Below, one piece after another: positions 29,761 through 37,514 of a stretch of DNA of 64,000 bases (the stretch's first letter is position 1; every line of letters begins with the position of its first letter). This stretch comes from Novosphingobium sp. (GTDB lineage: Bacteria; Pseudomonadota; Alphaproteobacteria; Sphingomonadales; Sphingomonadaceae). The notes under the pieces are model-generated. The model worked only from the letters and a program-made list of their open reading frames with translations, was not told the origin of the DNA and did not search any database. A program made the position numbers and the translations under genes. Location: the NCBI GenBank assembly GCA_004211435.1, contig SECS01000016.1:1-64000 (forward strand), in the 5' to 3' direction.

Positions 29761-30357
29761 ATGGAAGCCGCCGTCAGTCGTATCAGCAGGGAAGGCCCCA
29801 GCGACGCCCGCCAGGTACGCTCGCGCAACGCATTGACCGGTGCCCTGCTCGAACTGCTCGAGGAAAAACCGTTCGACCAGCTGACAATCCGCGAGATCTC
29901 GGCGCGCGCAGGAACGGGCTACGCCACGTTCTTCCGCCATTATCCGACCAAGGAAGCCCTGCTCAGCGATGTCGCCTCGGAAGAAATCGCCGACCTGCTC
30001 GCCCGCACGCTGCCGGTGCTCTACGATTCCAACAGCTTTGAATCGACGCGCGCGCTGTGCGGTCACGTCGCCGAGCACCGCAATCTCTGGGCCGCATTGC
30101 TGACGGGCGGCGCCGCGGGGATCGTTCGCGAGGAATTCATCCGCCAGGCCCGGCAGCTGCCGCGCGACATGGTCGAGCGCAAGTCGTGGCTCCCCGCCGA
30201 CCTCGGCGTGGTCTACGGCACCGGCGGAACGATCGACCTTCTCGCCTGGTGGCTTTCGCAGGACGAGGCCTATTCGCCCGAAGAGATCGCCGCGATCCTC
30301 AATCGCCTGATCATCGCCCCCCTTATCAGCGGTGAACGCTCACCCGCTTCGGCATAG
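29761..30357 (+). CDS. TetR-family transcriptional regulator
   Basis: 198 aa. The N-terminal helix-turn-helix is DQLTIREISARAGTGYATFFRHYPTKEALLSDV (about 38-70), a standard TetR DNA-binding domain. The C-terminal ligand domain has no assignable specificity. It lies upstream of the xdhC-type gene on the same strand with a 43-base gap, and could control it or the neighbouring genes. No ribosome site is clear at the ATG, so translation may begin elsewhere or be weak. Confidence 0.85.
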   Translation: MEAAVSRISREGPSDARQVRSRNALTGALLELLEEKPFDQLTIREISARAGTGYATFFRHYPTKEALLSDVASEEIADLLARTLPVLYDSNSFESTRALCGHVAEHRNLWAALLTGGAAGIVREEFIRQARQLPRDMVERKSWLPADLGVVYGTGGTIDLLAWWLSQDEAYSPEEIAAILNRLIIAPLISGERSPASA

Positions 30358-30400
30358 GGCTGCCTTGCCGTTCTATGAGACGGTACATATCATAGCTGTG

Positions 30401-31384
30401 ATGATCGAAGACGACGTGATCGCCGATGCCGACTGGCCCCTGTTCGGCTGGAGCGACGACGTGCGCCCCATGCTGGCCCGCGCCCTCGCCGCCGGCCGGC
30501 CCGCTGCATTGGCCACGCTCTACAAGGTCGAAGGCAGCGCCCCCCGCGGACCGGGCGCGCAGATGCTGTTCGACGGCCGCCAGGCCAGCGGCTATTTCTC
30601 GGGCGACTGTATCGAGGGCGACGTTGCCCGCCATGCCGCCGAAGTGCTGGCAGACGGCGCGCCGCGCCGTCTCCACTACGGCATGGGCAGCCCCTGGATC
30701 GACATCCGGCTGCGTTGTGGCGGAGCGCTGCACGTCCTGCTCGAAAGGATCGATCCCGACAGCCCGGCGGCGCAGGCCCTGCTCGAGAATGCGCGCGAGC
30801 GCCGCCCCTGCCTCTGGTCGACCGACGGAACCGATCAGCAAGTGCTCGTGGGCGACGACGCGCCCCTGCTCTCGCTGACCCAGGATCCTCTGCGGATCGA
30901 GCGCCGCTACGATCCGCCGCGGCGGCTGATCGTCTCGGGCGGCGATCCTGGCGCCCTGGCTCTGGCGCAACTCGCCGCCGAAGCTCAGTTCGAAACGCTG
31001 CTGCTGCGCCCCGGAGGACCCGAGGGCCCTTCCCCCTTCTCCAAGGTCACCTATCTGCGCGGCGAACCGTCGGCGCTCCTGCCCGAGATCGGCGTCGATC
31101 GCTGGACCGCCTATGTCGGCGCGACGCACGAGGATCATCATGACCTCGGCGGCTGCCTCCACGCGCTGCGCCACGGCGCCGGCTATGTCGCTATGATCGG
31201 CGCCAAGTCGCGTGCACCCACGCGGCTCGCGGCGCTCGCAGCCGCCGGCGCGACCGCAGAGGAACTGGCCCGCCTGCACCTGTCGCCGGGCATCGCCGGG
31301 CTAGGCAAGGCCCCCTGGGAGGTCGCGGTGGGCATCCTGGCCGAGATCATGCAGGCGTTGAACCCCACCCGGGAACGCGCGTGA
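30401..31384 (+). CDS. XdhC/CoxI family molybdenum-enzyme maturation protein
   Basis: 327 aa from the ATG at 30401. An N-terminal XdhC/CoxI domain (ALATLYKVEGSAPRGPGAQMLFDGRQASGYFSGDCIEGDVARHA, about 36-80) is followed by a Rossmann-like XdhC C-terminal domain (RRLIVSGGDPGALALAQLA near 175, GYVAMIGAKSRAPTRLAAL near 265). XdhC binds molybdenum cofactor and helps insert the sulfurated form into xanthine-oxidase family enzymes. Its stop overlaps the next gene's GTG (GTGA). A likely client, the hydroxylase large subunit, is encoded at 45299-47536. Confidence 0.88.
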   Translation: MIEDDVIADADWPLFGWSDDVRPMLARALAAGRPAALATLYKVEGSAPRGPGAQMLFDGRQASGYFSGDCIEGDVARHAAEVLADGAPRRLHYGMGSPWIDIRLRCGGALHVLLERIDPDSPAAQALLENARERRPCLWSTDGTDQQVLVGDDAPLLSLTQDPLRIERRYDPPRRLIVSGGDPGALALAQLAAEAQFETLLLRPGGPEGPSPFSKVTYLRGEPSALLPEIGVDRWTAYVGATHEDHHDLGGCLHALRHGAGYVAMIGAKSRAPTRLAALAAAGATAEELARLHLSPGIAGLGKAPWEVAVGILAEIMQALNPTRERA

Positions 31385-31953
31385 CCACGCCGCTCGTCGC
31401 GGTCGTCCTGGCCGCCGGCGCTGCACGGCGCTTCGGTGGCGACAAGCTCTCCGCGTCGTTCCGCGGCGAACCGCTGCTGCATCACGCGATTCGCGCTGCG
31501 CGTGCGGCGCCAGTCGAACGCGTCATCGTCGTCTGCGGCGATCGCGTCGATTTCGGCGACTGGCCGGCAGTCCCCCCGATCGAGCGCGTGTGCATCGCAA
31601 GCACCGCGCTTTCCGAATCGCTCCAGGCCGGCGTCGCCGCGGCTGGTGAAGTCACGGGGGTCTTCATCTTCCTCGGCGACATGCCGCTGATCCCGCACGA
31701 CGTCGCGGCCCGGCTCGCCGCGGTTCTGGACGATCGCTTCGCTGCCGTGCCCCGCCACGCGGGCAAGAACGGCCATCCCGTCCTGCTGGCGGCGCGCGCC
31801 TTTCCCGAGATCGCCCGGCTGGCGGGTGACGAGGGCGCGGGCCGCCTGCTCAAGCAGCGCGACGACCTGGCTTTCGTCGAAGTGGCCGACGACGGTATCC
31901 TGCTCGACGTCGATCGCGCCGAGGATCTCACCCGCCTGCAAGCCCGGCGCTGA
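31381..31953 (+). CDS. Molybdenum cofactor nucleotidyltransferase (MocA/MobA-like)
   Basis: 190 aa from a GTG overlapping the xdhC-type stop by four bases. The N-terminal VVLAAGAARRFGGDKL is the MobA-like NTP-binding signature, and GDMPLI (about 100-105) is the conserved metal-binding DMP motif. MocA attaches CMP to molybdopterin to make the dinucleotide cofactor used by xanthine-oxidase family enzymes of the CO dehydrogenase or isoquinoline oxidoreductase type. The coupling with XdhC supports this over a guanylyltransferase role. Confidence 0.88.
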   Translation: MTTPLVAVVLAAGAARRFGGDKLSASFRGEPLLHHAIRAARAAPVERVIVVCGDRVDFGDWPAVPPIERVCIASTALSESLQAGVAAAGEVTGVFIFLGDMPLIPHDVAARLAAVLDDRFAAVPRHAGKNGHPVLLAARAFPEIARLAGDEGAGRLLKQRDDLAFVEVADDGILLDVDRAEDLTRLQARR

Positions 31954-31975
31954 CAAGCTTCCGCTCGACATCGGC

Positions 31976-31989
31976 TGAACATCTGTACA
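31976..31989. promoter_or_regulatory. TGAACA-TC-TGTACA dyad before the OYE gene
   Basis: An imperfect palindrome (one mismatch from TGAACAnnTGTTCA) 55 bases upstream of the ATG at 32045. It resembles the sites at 19169-19180 and 40211-40224. Confidence 0.4.
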
Positions 31990-32044
31990 AATTGCTTGGC
32001 GAACGCGCCGCTCAGAAGGCGTGAGTGACATTCCCGGAGAGCCC

Positions 32045-33193
32045 ATGACCGATTTCAGCGGCCTGTTCACACCGTTCCAGCTCGGCAGGTTCACCCTGCC
32101 CAACCGCTTCGTCTTCCCGCCGATGGGGCTCGAGGTCTGCGAAGGTGGCATCCCCGGTGACGATGCCGCCGAATACTACGCACGGCGCGCGCAGGGCGGC
32201 GCCAGCCTGGTGATCACCGAGGGCGCCTATATCGATCACCCTTCGTCTGGCGACAATCCGATGCTCGGCCGCTTCCACGGCGACGACGCCTGGGACGCCT
32301 GGCGCAACGTCGCCACCAAGGTCCACCGCGAGGGCGGGATCTGCCTGCCCGAACTCTGGCACGTCGGCCTCGTCTACCGCGGCCCCGACGTGCTCGTCGG
32401 CAACGACGTCGAATTCCGCGACGAGCTCGGTCAGGTCAGCCCCTCGGGCTACATCGCGCCTGGCAAGCAGGTGACCGAGGGCATGACCCAGGCGCAGATC
32501 GACGAGGTCATCGCCGCCTATGCACGCGGCGCGGCCAAGGCGGTCGAGCTCGGCTTCGACGGGATCGAGCTCCACGGCGCGCACGGCTACGTCATCGACC
32601 AGTTCCTGTGGAAGGCGCTCAACCACCGCAGCGACCGCTATGGCGGCTCGCCGCGCGCGCGCGGCCAGTTCGCCGCCGAAGTCGTGCGCGCCTGCCGCGC
32701 GCAGCTCGAACCCGGCATGCCGATCATCATGCGCATGTCCAACTGGAAGATGGTCGATTTCAACGCGCGCCTGGCCGATACGCCCCAGGAGCTCGAAGCG
32801 CTGCTCGCACCGATCGTCGAGGCCGGGGTCGAGCTGTTCGACTGCTCGCAGCGCCGCTTCTGGGAACCCTGCTTCCCCGAGATCGACGATCGCAATCTTG
32901 CCGGCTGGGTCAAGGCGGTGACCGGCGTGCCGACCTGCACGATCGGCTCGATCGGGCTCGATCTCGATTTCCTGGTCAGCCTCAGCGAAGGCAAGACCGC
33001 CGAGCTCGATCTGGCCAAGCTCGACGAGCTGATGCGCCGCTTCGATCGCGGCGACTTCGACCTGATCGCGGTCGGTCGCGCGATGATCGCCGAACCCGAT
33101 TGGCCCAAGCTGGTCCAGGCCGGCGCGCTCGATCAGCTCAAACCTTTCGCGACCAGCCTGATGGCCGATCCGCTCATGGCGCATGTAAAATAG
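32045..33193 (+). CDS. NADH:flavin oxidoreductase, old yellow enzyme family
   Basis: 382 aa from the ATG at 32045 with CGGAGAG upstream. TIM-barrel OYE features include LPNRFVFPPMGL (FMN site), the active-site ELWHVGLVYRG, and HGAHGYVIDQFLWKALNHRSDRYGGS, followed by the C-terminal DLIAVGRAMIAEPDWPKLV phosphate-binding region. There is no C-terminal [4Fe-4S]/FAD extension, so this is a single-domain enzyme that reduces activated C=C bonds using FMN. The substrate is unknown; the setting suggests catabolism of a cyclic or unsaturated compound. Confidence 0.87.
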   Translation: MTDFSGLFTPFQLGRFTLPNRFVFPPMGLEVCEGGIPGDDAAEYYARRAQGGASLVITEGAYIDHPSSGDNPMLGRFHGDDAWDAWRNVATKVHREGGICLPELWHVGLVYRGPDVLVGNDVEFRDELGQVSPSGYIAPGKQVTEGMTQAQIDEVIAAYARGAAKAVELGFDGIELHGAHGYVIDQFLWKALNHRSDRYGGSPRARGQFAAEVVRACRAQLEPGMPIIMRMSNWKMVDFNARLADTPQELEALLAPIVEAGVELFDCSQRRFWEPCFPEIDDRNLAGWVKAVTGVPTCTIGSIGLDLDFLVSLSEGKTAELDLAKLDELMRRFDRGDFDLIAVGRAMIAEPDWPKLVQAGALDQLKPFATSLMADPLMAHVK

Positions 33194-33198
33194 GGAAG

Positions 33199-33225
33199 GT
33201 GAGGCGCGCGTCAGCGGCGCCTCAC
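33199..33225 (+). terminator. Hairpin after the OYE gene
   Basis: GTGAGGCGC (33199-33207) and GCGCCTCAC (33217-33225) form a perfect 9-bp stem five bases after the OYE stop. There is no T-run, but the position fits a terminator for the plus strand, and it also flanks the minus-strand small gene at 33247. Confidence 0.6.
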
Positions 33226-33246
33226 GAATTCACCCGCTCGATGAAT

Positions 33247-33432
33247 TCAGAGCAGGTGTGTCTTGAGCGGGGCGCTTTCGCCGCCCAGCGAAAGCTGCGA
33301 GAGCGAGAACCAGCGCCGCGGGCTGCCATTGATGCCCTCCAGTCGCGCATGATCGTCCTTGATCGCCAGAACCCGGCGCAACATCCGTTCGCCTTTGGCG
33401 AAAACAATCGATCCAATCTGAATTTGCCGCAT
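33247..33432 (-). CDS. Small hypothetical protein, 61 aa
   Basis: 61 codons with a convincing ribosome site (GGAGGAAG, four bases before the ATG at 33432). The product is basic and begins MRQIQIGSIVFAKGERML, with the later segment VLAIKDDHARLEGINGSPRRWF. The alternation of short strands resembles a small SH3- or KOW-like barrel, but I do not recognise a family. It sits between the OYE terminator and the TetR gene, on the same strand as the latter. The ribosome site and hairpin-bounded position favour a real gene. Confidence 0.5.
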   Translation of the reverse strand: MRQIQIGSIVFAKGERMLRRVLAIKDDHARLEGINGSPRRWFSLSQLSLGGESAPLKTHLL

Positions 33433-33537
33433 GGCGCTTCCTCCGAGTCGATTAACCTAAGATAAACCAAGTCCGACCAATCTCAAGCGACTCAGTAGAC
33501 TTTTTACCCCACCTTGCGCACGGCCCGTCGCGCGCCG

Positions 33538-34281
33538 TCAGATCCCGTCACGCAGTTTTTTATTCAACGAATCCAATACCTCGGCCACCTCTGCGGCATG
33601 GGCCCTGAGCCGCCGGTTCTCGCGTTCGATCAGTCCCCGATCCTGCGCAGGCAAGGCCCCATGCAGAAACAGTCGCACGCAGTAGCGCGTGTGGCGATCG
33701 ATCGAGTCGTCGTCGAACGCAACACCCCAGGCGGCCGTGCTCGCCGGACCGCCGACGACGAGGTGGAGGAACGCCAGCGCCGCCTCCTGGGCTTCGGGCG
33801 CGGGGGCATCGGCGGGCAGCAGGCGGCGACGGAACAGGTCGGCCAGATAGTCCAGGGTCGGCTCGGTCCCCATGCGCGTGTTGGCGGCGGCGATTTCGGG
33901 CATGGAAACCGAGACCGCGTTGCTCAGCCGCAGCAGCCGCAGGCCCGCAGGGCTGAGGATGTTGGTCAGGAGCATCTGCGCGATCGCCAGCAGCGCCTTT
34001 TCCAGGTCGTCGACCTCGGCCGCACGCAGCCGCGCCACGGGCACCATCCACTCGTCGATCGCGCGCGCCAGCGCCGCCTTGAACAACGCTTCCTTGTCGG
34101 CGTACCGCGCATAGACCGTACGCTTGGCCATGCCCGCCGCGGCGGTGATCGCGTCGATGCTCGTGCGCTCGAAGCCGTGCTCGAGGAACAGGTCGAGCGC
34201 AATGTCGAGCAATTGCTCGTCGCTGAGCGTCGGCCGCCCGGGCCGGCGCAGGATCGGTGGCGATGTTTGCATTTCGGCCAT
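33538..34281 (-). CDS. TetR-family regulator, divergent from the dioxygenase-LLM cassette
   Basis: 247 aa. The DNA-binding domain GRPTLSDEQLLDIALDLFLEHGFERTSIDAITAAAGMAKRTVYARYADKEALF (about 15-66) is typical of AcrR/TetR proteins, and a C-terminal domain of about 130 residues (TetR_C-like) binds the effector. It is transcribed away from the cassette at 34433-37514. Two matching palindromes, one directly in front of its own ATG and one before the cassette, suggest autorepression and cassette control by this protein. Confidence 0.88.
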   Translation of the reverse strand: MAEMQTSPPILRRPGRPTLSDEQLLDIALDLFLEHGFERTSIDAITAAAGMAKRTVYARYADKEALFKAALARAIDEWMVPVARLRAAEVDDLEKALLAIAQMLLTNILSPAGLRLLRLSNAVSVSMPEIAAANTRMGTEPTLDYLADLFRRRLLPADAPAPEAQEAALAFLHLVVGGPASTAAWGVAFDDDSIDRHTRYCVRLFLHGALPAQDRGLIERENRRLRAHAAEVAEVLDSLNKKLRDGI

Positions 34282-34288
34282 CGCCCGA

Positions 34289-34301
34289 CATTGAAACGAT
34301 G
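34289..34301. promoter_or_regulatory. Putative TetR operator 1
   Basis: CATTGAAACGATG, an imperfect palindrome of pattern CATnGnnnCnATG, ends eight bases from the start codon of the TetR gene (34281, minus strand). Its central ten bases, TTGAAACGAT, recur exactly in operator 2. Binding here would block the regulator's own expression. Confidence 0.5.
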
Positions 34302-34361
34302 CAAGTGACTATTCAAGCCAATTCCGCAAAAAACGCTCTCGACGGTATCATATCGGCTTGC

Positions 34362-34374
34362 TATTGAAACGATA
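34362..34374. promoter_or_regulatory. Putative TetR operator 2
   Basis: TATTGAAACGATA, pattern TATnGnnnCnATA, shares TTGAAACGAT with operator 1 exactly 73 bases away (about seven helical turns). It lies about 60 bases before the first dioxygenase ATG, within an AT-rich stretch suited to a promoter. Confidence 0.5.
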
Positions 34375-34432
34375 AGAGTAACAAATGATCTGCAGCCGAG
34401 TCGGCCTGACGGACATGGAGAGGATGCCAGCC

Positions 34433-35314
34433 ATGGCGCTTTCGTCGATCGATCTGTCCCCCCGCATGGGATCGCAGGTGGACATCACCAAGGCCGACCT
34501 GCTCAGCGGCGAACGCGCGCAGGATATCCGCGCGTTGCTCGACGCGCGCGGCGTGCTGTTGTTTCGCGGGATCGCACCCGACGATGCCGAGCTGCGCACG
34601 ATTTCGCGCTCGCTCGGCGACCTGCGGCTCGGTGCGTCGAAGCGCGGCACCGACGGGCGCACGCTCAACGAAGGCGAAGAGGGCGTGATGAAGATCTCGC
34701 TCGATAGCAAGGTGAACCCGGACTACGCGCGGTTCCTGCCCGGCAACCACCTCTGGCACATGGACGGCACCTACGAGCCGGTACCGCCGCTGGCGACGCT
34801 GTTCACCCCGTTCAAGCTGTCGCAGACCGGTGGCGACACCTGCTTCGCCAACACCTATGCCGCCTTCGAGGACCTGCCCGAGGGCGAGCGCGCCGCGCTC
34901 GAACAACTGCGCGTGGTCCACACGATGCAGGCGGCGCTGTTCCCGGTGATGCGCGACGTCACGCCCGAGGAATTCGCGGTCTGGTATAGCTATCCGCAGC
35001 GCTCGCATCCGCTCGTCTGGCACCATCGCTCTGGCCGCAAGTCGCTCGTGCTCAGCACCTCCGGCGCTTATGTCGAGGGCATGGCCCAGGCCGAGAGCCA
35101 CGACCTGCTCGAACGGCTGATGCGCCACGCGACGCAGGACGAGTACGTCTATCGCCACAAGTGGCAGCTCGGTGATCTCGTCATCTGGGACAACACCGGC
35201 GCCATGCACCGCGTCCTGCCCTTCGACCGCGAGAGCGGCCGCGAGTTCCACCGCGCCACGCTCAACGGCGAGGAACCAATCACATCGACCAGCGAACGCC
35301 TGGTCTCCGCCTGA
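34433..35314 (+). CDS. TauD/TfdA-family Fe(II)/2-oxoglutarate dioxygenase (first)
   Basis: 293 aa from the ATG at 34433 with GGAGAGGA upstream. The iron facial triad is H109-M-D111 and H259 (NTGAMHR), with R274 the expected 2-oxoglutarate anchor. The family oxidises taurine, phenoxyacetates, alkyl sulfates and similar compounds, releasing succinate and CO2. The segment SKRGTDGRTLNEGEEG is unlike TauD or TfdA, so the substrate is open. It is first gene of a three-gene cassette with an LLM monooxygenase (28 bases on) and a second dioxygenase. Confidence 0.87.
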   Translation: MALSSIDLSPRMGSQVDITKADLLSGERAQDIRALLDARGVLLFRGIAPDDAELRTISRSLGDLRLGASKRGTDGRTLNEGEEGVMKISLDSKVNPDYARFLPGNHLWHMDGTYEPVPPLATLFTPFKLSQTGGDTCFANTYAAFEDLPEGERAALEQLRVVHTMQAALFPVMRDVTPEEFAVWYSYPQRSHPLVWHHRSGRKSLVLSTSGAYVEGMAQAESHDLLERLMRHATQDEYVYRHKWQLGDLVIWDNTGAMHRVLPFDRESGREFHRATLNGEEPITSTSERLVSA

Positions 35315-35342
35315 CAATCAAGACTTTCGAGGAGAGAACATC

Positions 35343-36431
35343 ATGCAGATCGGCGTCCATCTTGGCTTCCAGAACCTCCACGGCATGCCCGACATGGAGT
35401 TCTTCCGGAAGGAAACGCAGATCGCCATCGAAGCCGAGGCCATGGGCTTCGACTTCGCGGCAATGGTCGAGCACCACTTCACCGACTATGCCGCCTGCCC
35501 CGATCCGCTGCAGGCGCTGTCCTACGTCGCAGCCAAGACCAAGACGATCAAGCTGATGCCCGCCGCGGTGATCCTGCCGTGGAACGATCCCGTGCGCGTG
35601 GTCGAGAAGGTGGCCATGCTCGACTCGCTGTCCGAAGGCCGCGTGATCCTGGGCATGGGTCGCGGCGCCGCACGACGCGAGTTCAACGGTTTCCGCAAGG
35701 ACATCGCCGACAGCCGCGAGCTGTTCGACGAGGCCGCACTGATCATCATGGACGGGCTCGAGACCGGCACGGTCAAGGCCAACACCAAGCACTTCCAGCA
35801 GCCCGAGGTCGAGATCCGGCCGCGTCCCGAGGGTTGGACGCGCGACCGCATGCTGATGGTCTCGATGTCGCCGAGCTCGGCCGAGGTTGCCGCCGAATAC
35901 GGCCTCAAGGCGCTGCGCTTCAGCCAGGGCGACTGGTCGCACTCGATGAAGGAGATCAACGCCTATCGCTCGACCTTCGAGGCCAAGCACGGCAAGAAGG
36001 CCCCGCCCTTCGTGATCTCGGATTTCGTCGTCTGCGTCGACACCGAGGAGCAGGTGGCCGAATATACCGACGAGTATTTCGCCAAGCAGTTCTACCAGGT
36101 CGCCAACCACTACGAATGGGGTGGCGAGCACTTCAAGAACATGCCCTCCTATGCCACCTACGTCGCGCTGGGCGATGCGATGAACGCCGCCGGCGGGCCG
36201 GAAAAGGCCTACAAGGATTACATCGGCGGCAACCTGATCGGCACGCCCGCACAGCTGATCGAGAAGGATGCGATGCGCAAGGCGACCGTGGGCGACTACG
36301 ACATCATCGCCAACTTCTCCTACGGCGGCATGTCCTACGACCGCGTCTACGACCAGATGAAGCGCTTCGCCGACAAGGTCATGCCCACCTTGCGCGAGAG
36401 TGCTTCGGCCGAACCCGTCGCAGCCGAATAA
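35343..36431 (+). CDS. LLM-class (bacterial luciferase-like) flavin monooxygenase
   Basis: 362 aa from the ATG at 35343 with GAGGAGAG upstream. Luciferase-like TIM barrel: EAEAMGFDFAAMVEHHFTDYAACPDPLQALSYVAAKTKTIKL near 30-70, LDSLSEGRVILGMGRGAARREFNGF near 95-120 (flavin phosphate region), and VSMSPSSAEVAAEYGLKALRF near 175-195. It needs reduced flavin, but no flavin reductase gene is adjacent. It lies between two 2-oxoglutarate dioxygenase genes, suggesting sequential oxygenation of one substrate. A hairpin (36444-36483) separates it from the second dioxygenase. Confidence 0.87.
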   Translation: MQIGVHLGFQNLHGMPDMEFFRKETQIAIEAEAMGFDFAAMVEHHFTDYAACPDPLQALSYVAAKTKTIKLMPAAVILPWNDPVRVVEKVAMLDSLSEGRVILGMGRGAARREFNGFRKDIADSRELFDEAALIIMDGLETGTVKANTKHFQQPEVEIRPRPEGWTRDRMLMVSMSPSSAEVAAEYGLKALRFSQGDWSHSMKEINAYRSTFEAKHGKKAPPFVISDFVVCVDTEEQVAEYTDEYFAKQFYQVANHYEWGGEHFKNMPSYATYVALGDAMNAAGGPEKAYKDYIGGNLIGTPAQLIEKDAMRKATVGDYDIIANFSYGGMSYDRVYDQMKRFADKVMPTLRESASAEPVAAE

Positions 36432-36443
36432 AACGATGAACAT

Positions 36444-36483
36444 GACAGGGCCGGTCTTGCACACTCGCAGGGCCGGCCTTGTC
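36444..36483 (+). terminator. Hairpin between LLM and second dioxygenase genes
   Basis: GACAGGGCCGG (36444-36454) pairs with CCGGCCTTGTC (36473-36483) through eleven base pairs including one G-U, followed by CTATTTC. It could be a partial terminator that lowers expression of the downstream dioxygenase, or a stabilising structure at the end of the first message. Confidence 0.5.
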
Positions 36484-36554
36484 CTATTTCGTCAAGGCAA
36501 GCCCTTCGCTTTCGTGATAGGCGCGGCGCAAATATGCGATTCCAGGAGAATGTC

Positions 36555-37514
36555 ATGACTCTCGACGTGAGGCCTCTGACCGCAGGCCGTGCATTCGGCG
36601 CCCGCATCGGCGGGCTGACGCTCGCCCAGACGCAGGATCCCGCGATCCGCGCGGAGATCAATGCGCTGTTCGAAGCCAAGGGCGTCATCGTCTTCGAAGA
36701 CGTCGAGCCCTCGGGCCAGATGCACGTCGCGCTCAGCGACGTGTTCGGTCCGCTCAAGGAGCACCCGAGCAAAGCCGTGCCGCGCGTCGACGATGCCATG
36801 CCCGGTGTGATCGACATGACTTACACCCCCGGCACCGACGGGCTCATGTCGATCGGCGGACGCAAGACCGCGCAGTGGCTGCCCTGGCACTTCGACCACG
36901 CCTACAACAACGAGCTCAACCGCGCCGGCGTCCTGCGTGCGATCGACATTCCGCCCGACGGCGGCATGACCGGCTTCGCCGACGGCATCGAGCTCTACGA
37001 AGCGCTCTCGCCCGATCTGCGCGCGGCGATCGAGGGCAAGAATGTGCTCTACCGGATGAACGTCATCATGGCGAACTTCCACTTCGGTGCGCCCGAAGGC
37101 TTCGCCGTGCTCAGCGAGAACTCGCACGCCCAGGCGGTGATGGATGCCGCCGCCGACGTGCCGCGCGCGATCCACCCGGCGGTCTGGACGCGCAGCTCGG
37201 GTGAGAAGGTGCTCCACGTCTCGCCGTGGATGGCCGAAGGCTTCGAAGGCGACGAGACCCCCGAAGGCAACGCCCTGCTCCAGGCGGTCTGCGCCGAGAT
37301 CTTCGAAAAGGCGCAGGCGCTGTCCTACTTCCACAAGTGGAAAGAGACCGACATGCTGATCTGGGACAACTGGCGCGTGCTCCACGCGGTCAGCGGCCAC
37401 GACCCGCAATACGGCCGCCGCATGCAGCGCACGACGATCAAGGGCGACTACGACCTCGGCTATTTCGAGAACGGCGCGACGAACACCAACCGCATCGTCG
37501 AACGGGCTTATTGA
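36555..37514 (+). CDS. TauD/TfdA-family Fe(II)/2-oxoglutarate dioxygenase (second)
   Basis: 319 aa from the ATG at 36555 with CAGGAG nine bases upstream. The iron ligands are H112-F-D114 and H277 (WDNWRVLHAV), with R288 or R292 in the following strand for 2-oxoglutarate. It begins MTLDVRPLTAGRAFGARIGGLTL, much like TfdA and TauD. It is clearly diverged from the first dioxygenase of the cassette, so the two probably act on different intermediates. A palindromic repeat begins five bases after its stop. Confidence 0.88.
   Translation: MTLDVRPLTAGRAFGARIGGLTLAQTQDPAIRAEINALFEAKGVIVFEDVEPSGQMHVALSDVFGPLKEHPSKAVPRVDDAMPGVIDMTYTPGTDGLMSIGGRKTAQWLPWHFDHAYNNELNRAGVLRAIDIPPDGGMTGFADGIELYEALSPDLRAAIEGKNVLYRMNVIMANFHFGAPEGFAVLSENSHAQAVMDAAADVPRAIHPAVWTRSSGEKVLHVSPWMAEGFEGDETPEGNALLQAVCAEIFEKAQALSYFHKWKETDMLIWDNWRVLHAVSGHDPQYGRRMQRTTIKGDYDLGYFENGATNTNRIVERAY

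Follow-up and report, generated by a model that had tools for sequence, protein, structure and literature searches.

A TetR-family regulator with a heptad-patterned tail and phased, putative twin operators in Novosphingobium: a candidate for a short repression loop

Between a TetR-family regulator gene and a divergent cassette of oxygenase genes in Novosphingobium sp. lie two copies of a short motif, CATTGAAACGATG (34289-34301) and TATTGAAACGATA (34362-34374), in a stretch of 64,000 nucleotides that we refer to as the window. The questions that this locus raises are whether the two copies are operators, and what their separation might say about the way the regulator works. The first-pass annotation had described them as 13-bp imperfect palindromes with an identical 10-base core, lying 73 bases apart. 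Direct reading of the sequence bears out both copies, their places and the 73-bp separation; a core is indeed common to both, but it comprises 11 bases (ATTGAAACGAT) instead of 10, and as palindromes the 13-mers are imperfect, with four of five pairs matching.

By domain content, the regulator is a member of the TetR family. The N-terminal domain (PF00440) scores 52.1 bits against a curated cut-off of 24, and the AefR-like C-terminal domain (PF14246) 36.3 bits against 22; at E<=0.001 Pfam returned these two domains only, and no LacI-type HTH with a sugar-binding-like domain was found. Among the NCBIfam matches listed for six proteins, including the TetR, both TauD and the LLM products, none exceeded a curated cut-off. 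The first cassette gene is likely to start at 34433, because in the close relative L047 the ATGs matching 34385 and 34424 are out of frame (as judged by eye); the alternative ATG at 34385 overlaps operator 2. The nearest solved chain to its product is 5bke, a 2,4-D dioxygenase (1.2e-33), which hints at oxygenolytic catabolism and leaves the substrate unfixed. A link to steroid catabolism was also considered, because the progesterone cluster of Caenibius tardaugens contains a TetR gene and an LLM, as the matched part of PMC12239570 describes. The gene order across 29761-37514 is TetR, XdhC-like, nucleotidyltransferase-like (by eye), old-yellow-enzyme, TetR, TauD, LLM and TauD, and is kept in genome G006 (L062, open reading frames read by eye), where there is an extra SDR-like gene. 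The features of the locus are collected in Table 1.

Table 1. Features of the regulator-cassette locus, in window positions.
Feature	Position	Strand	Remarks
TetR-family regulator, 247 aa	33538..34281	-	Pfam TetR_N 5.5e-14 and TetR_C_7 (AefR-like) 6.3e-9
Regulator C-terminal tail, residues 210-247	33541..33654	-	Heptad-patterned, shuffle p 0.032; AF2 helix 215-244
Putative operator 1, regulator side	34290..34312	+	ATTGAAAC-gatgcaa-GTGACTAT; axis 34301; leave-one-out PWM 20.5 bits (threshold 0.95)
A6 tract, near middle of inter-operator DNA	34328..34333	+	Seen in the sequence; AAA weakly conserved there in relatives
-35-like element TCGACG	34339..34344	+	TGAC conserved at this offset in relatives
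-10-like element TATTGA	34362..34367	+	17 bp from the -35-like element; overlaps operator 2
Putative operator 2, cassette side	34363..34385	+	ATTGAAAC-gataaga-GTAACAAA; axis 34374; leave-one-out PWM 31.7 bits
TauD/TfdA-family dioxygenase, cassette gene 1	34433..35314	+	Pfam TauD 6.3e-57 (for 34385-35314)
Luciferase-like monooxygenase (LLM), cassette gene 2	35343..36431	+	Pfam Bac_luciferase 9.9e-48
Second TauD-family dioxygenase, cassette gene 3	36534..37514	+	Pfam TauD 6.2e-44

Taken from the window alone, the evidence for the twin motif is modest. The 4.49-Mb genome has exactly two occurrences of the core ATTGAAACGAT, each of them at the TetR/TauD intergenic locus (the pattern read backwards occurs once), and an 11-mer repeat of this kind arose in 0.25% of 2000 shuffles of the 103-bp intergenic stretch. 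The copies might nevertheless have arisen as repeats by chance, or might be -35-like TTGAAA boxes, and in neither case would they serve as operators; 11-mer direct repeats less than 100 bp apart are in fact common in the window (20 pairs, against a shuffle mean of 9.8 and a maximum of 17 in 30 shuffles). What decides the matter, and confirms the motif, is its conservation across relatives. The search for TetR relatives covered 61 related genomes, 397 genomes of the family (nine with E<=1e-25, six of them from outside the genus) and 195 genomes of the genus (38 with E<=1e-40, the window's own included); the relative in Novosphingobium sp. JCM 18896 is 93% identical. We examined 73 TetR loci, counting the window, and in 32 of them a TauD relative, 58-100% identical to that of the window, is divergent from the TetR gene, an arrangement that the six best loci of other genera (L035-L040) lack.

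The motif was scored in these loci with a 23-bp leave-one-out PWM, the threshold being the 99th percentile of the best scores reached in 1200 shuffled regions. Loss of the motif in close relatives that keep the gene pair had been proposed as a check; at least one site above threshold is present in 30 of the 32 divergent TetR-TauD loci, window included, which favours the earlier assignment of the motifs as putative operators of the adjacent TetR gene and cassette. In the remaining two loci (L095 and L056) its place is taken by a perfect AACACC-N5-GGTGTT dyad, beside divergent pairs whose TetR identity is 42-47%. Conservation of this extent stands strongly against chance repeats, and in the consensus TTGAAA is not followed, 17 bp on, by a -10-like block, so that the motif was rejected as a -35 box; we regard either form of this explanation as extremely improbable.

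A search of the genus with WTTGAAACGNNNNNGGTRACAAW, allowing at most one mismatch, gave 40 matches in 28 of 195 genomes against two for the reversed control, an excess that is partly built in because the pattern derives from the TetR-TauD sites. By coordinates, 31 of the matches lie at TetR-TauD loci, and the other nine, which lie outside the loci that shaped the pattern, also speak against chance. Six of these nine were inspected. Three (L141, L142 and L143, in genomes G013, G553 and G592) stand immediately before an LLM gene that has been relocated away from TauD, and the same three genomes hold a short-tailed, single-operator TetR (L007, L086 and L084). The operator would here follow its target gene, which gives independent support for regulation, and the regulator probably does control the cassette enzyme genes. 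The other three sites (L144-L146) were found by eye to lie upstream of other kinds of genes, or of none that could be placed, and may be chance matches. At up to three mismatches the motif had 18 matches in the window's own genome, two of which are the known sites, whereas the reversed control had 24, and no wider regulon emerged there; an earlier and different pattern, at up to one mismatch, had given five against two. More distant TetR paralogues (34-42% identity; L036, L037, L038, L009, L010, L045, L046 and L059-L061) have no divergent TauD and show, by eye, a related dyad, TAATGAAAC-N7-GTNNCATTA. At L044, in the window's own genome, two sites of this type lie 128 bp apart, one of them under the PWM threshold.

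The 13-bp palindrome itself does not survive as the recognition unit. In the averaged motif the dyad symmetry is strongest about offset 11, which scores 7.07 (runner-up, 2.88), and the 13-bp palindrome, at offset 5, scores 1.71, a value summed over 11 column pairs against 17 for offset 11. Since the dyad axis lies 6 bp to the right of the 13-mer axis, each 13-mer basically consists of a left half-site and part of the spacer. As judged from the alignment of relatives, the conserved putative operator is a 23-bp dyad, ATTGAAAC-N7-GTNNCAAT, present in two copies (Table 1), the first of which starts 9 nt before the start codon of the TetR gene. The averaged motif thus has the dyad symmetry, beside a divergent target gene, expected of a TetR-family operator; in the single window copies the symmetry is weak, with the 8-base arms matching at five of eight positions and other registers reaching six of eight.

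Comparison also places the cassette-side site on a predicted promoter. Across 30 loci, TGAC is found at offset -23 from this site exactly in 13 and with at least three of its four bases in 18, and at no other offset from -48 to -4 does it reach seven. In relatives TATTGA, or a similar sequence, stands 17 bp after this -35 element and overlaps the left half-site. Four of the single-site loci (L041, L086, L007 and L084) have no such -35. Judging from position, a dimer bound at operator 2 should block RNA polymerase, because the operator overlaps the -10 box. The promoter of the TetR gene was not located.

Twin sites are present in 23 of the 32 divergent loci, and they are spaced at 73 bp (16 loci), 74 bp (three), 72 bp (one), 62 bp (two) or 63 bp (one), that is, at seven or six helical turns. 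The helical phase between the two putative operators, a mark of looping repressors, is thus conserved in all 23 loci, and the sole large change in spacing amounts to approximately one turn. The suggestion that the separation in the window represents about seven turns is accordingly strengthened by a phase constraint across relatives, which is compatible with cooperative or looped binding. Among the 16 loci at 73 bp, the 50-bp interval has pairwise identities of 0.16-0.82 (median 0.38) and falls into 11 groups at 60% identity, and the flanks vary from 62 to 193 bp between TetR and site 1 and from 52 to 144 bp between site 2 and TauD (SD 34 and 18, respectively, against 3.7 for the inter-site spacing). 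The spacing has therefore been held as sequence and flanks drifted. Because of shared ancestry there are fewer independent cases than loci; as a rough guide, the chance that a change falls in phase is 0.2 per change, 6.4e-5 for six and 0.02 for the two large ones, if net changes are taken as uniform over 1-15 bp and the six events, which were picked by eye, as independent. The distal site is weak in several loci (e.g., 3.5 bits in L076 and 7.9 bits in L077), and L006 has a degenerate second site at exactly -73 that scores -1.5, under the threshold, and was left out of the twin count.

The arrangement might alternatively be described as two independent, non-interacting operators, whose fixed spacing reflects the geometry of back-to-back promoters. 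The matched passages of PMC3511530 describe two operators in the divergent intergenic region of the classic TetR/tetA system, and in the window each operator has an evident place of its own, one beside the TetR start and one on the cassette promoter. Six of the seven short-tail loci, moreover, have a single site. Independent operators should tolerate small indels, yet every one of the 23 spacings falls within 72-74 or 62-63 bp, even where the intervening sequence has largely diverged, and the association of twin sites with the regulator's tail, described below, would have to be a coincidence. We consider this account unlikely, though it retains an appreciable share of our belief.

The window regulator extends 38 residues beyond residue 209. 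AlphaFold models were made for the window protein and for L047; for the former, the pLDDT blocks over residues 221-247 are 64-77 in a model that is poor as a whole (mean pLDDT 46) and that says nothing on oligomers. Comparison of the loci shows that long tails (31-52 residues, often heptad-patterned) accompany the twin sites. The regulator has a tail of at least 30 residues at 25 of the 32 loci, and twin sites accompany it at all of them except L006 and L056 (23 loci); none of the seven short-tailed loci has twin sites, six having a single site and L095 none by this PWM. L056 combines a 32-residue tail and a different dyad with the absence of twin sites. The tails are diverse in sequence and length, and by our custom score the heptad pattern reaches a shuffle p<0.05 in 15 of 28 and fails in 13.

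In a phylogeny from which the tail was excluded, tail state must have changed at least four times. The starred clade of 31 rows (97/92) contains all of the long-tailed proteins together with the short-tailed L085, L095 and L097, and the short-tailed, single-site TauD loci L082, L084, L007, L041 and L086 lie outside it on unstarred branches. L085 is nested in a mostly long-tailed clade and has neither the tail nor the second site. There is one independent contrast between tail and twin sites on starred branches and there are two on all branches (sign test p 1); nearly all draws point in the expected direction, with too few contrasts for significance. Three further regulators (L087, L083 and L034) have tails and no divergent TauD, and L087 and L083 are without clear twin sites. 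Upstream of L034, weak sites at 210 and 284, with one below threshold at 136 (by eye), form 74-bp steps. The EENRRLR-like zippers in the tails of L034, L087, L008 and L056 may be similar to zippers found in IS3 OrfA transposases, from which the tail might derive.

The reading that we favour, and that we consider reasonably probable, is that of an autoregulated TetR-family repressor in which the tail joins two dimers to form a short repression loop of the LacI or Rco type. We infer binding, repression, tetramerisation, looping and a ligand as follows. A dimer of the 33538-34281 product on operator 2 would cover the -10 box of the TauD-LLM cassette promoter, and a second dimer, on operator 1 at the TetR start, would provide autoregulation. 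Being approximately seven turns apart, the two dimers would sit on the same face of the helix, where the coiled-coil C-terminal tails could bridge them into a dimer of dimers, and the short repression loop so formed would close both promoters. A ligand, perhaps a substrate of the cassette, would release the repressor and open the loop. Loops this short are costly without DNA bending, which counts against looping.

A real phase constraint might also have another source, such as a bending protein (HU/IHF-like), contacts with RNA polymerase or curved DNA, with the tail serving dimer stability or some other partner. The A6 tract and the weakly conserved AAA near the middle of the interval fit such a source, as does the diversity of the tails in sequence and length. 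The interval consensus, however, holds little beyond the -35 and the weak AAA as far as the consensus shows, and long tails and twin sites occur together in 23 of 25 loci. We find this explanation improbable.

LacI has a C-terminal coiled-coil tetramerisation helix, with which the tail found here may be comparable. According to the matched passages, LacI loops of 65-86 bp function in vivo (PMC5081198) and LacI repression is phase-dependent (PMC1762422), and the present locus resembles these short loops in the separation of its two putative operators (six to eight turns) and in an apparent dependence on phase. The two differ in that Pfam gives TetR domains alone here, and in that the tetramer and loop are ones we infer. 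For Rco of pLS20, the passages of PMC4207663 describe a loop across a 75-bp spacer and the abolition of proper regulation by a 5-bp insertion. Rco shares with the arrangement proposed here a short loop, divergent promoters and one operator that overlaps the promoters; in those passages, however, Rco is not presented as a TetR-family protein, and its operators are repeats of an 8-base motif. It has, moreover, a p53-like tetramerisation domain, according to the matched part of PMC9986798.

Compared with TetR/tetA, as described in the matched passages of PMC3511530, the locus has the same basic plan: the gene for a dimeric HTH repressor is divergent from its target, the short region between the two holds a pair of palindromic operators, and autoregulation is probable here. 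It differs in its longer, 23-bp dyad, in operators that lie 72-74 or 62-63 bp apart in phase, in the extra heptad-patterned tail of the regulator and in its targets, which are TauD/LLM oxygenases. Another unusual member of the TetR family is Mce3R, which is built not as a single-domain dimer but as two fused TetR units with a nonpalindromic site; in the matched passages of PMC11667970 DNA looping appears just as the title of a reference. Among the literature matches listed, which consisted of titles and the starts of abstracts and covered the literature in part, there was no report of a TetR-family repressor that loops DNA through a C-terminal coiled coil.

Few kinds of bacterial regulator are as common as the TetR-family repressors, and the usual picture of these is of a simple dimer bound to its operator. 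The regulator described here, TetR-like in its domains, may be LacI- or Rco-like in its mechanism. We give even weight to the view that a TetR clade of Novosphingobium gained both a coiled-coil tail and a helically phased second operator, and so became a LacI-like looping repressor; its relatives would then represent a natural phasing experiment, in which one turn was lost (73 to 62-63 bp) and the phase left unchanged. If tail, second operator and phase do go together, they would reveal a way in which a plain repressor can be turned into a looping switch, and the clade offers both natural spacing variants and tail-less relatives as material for testing this.
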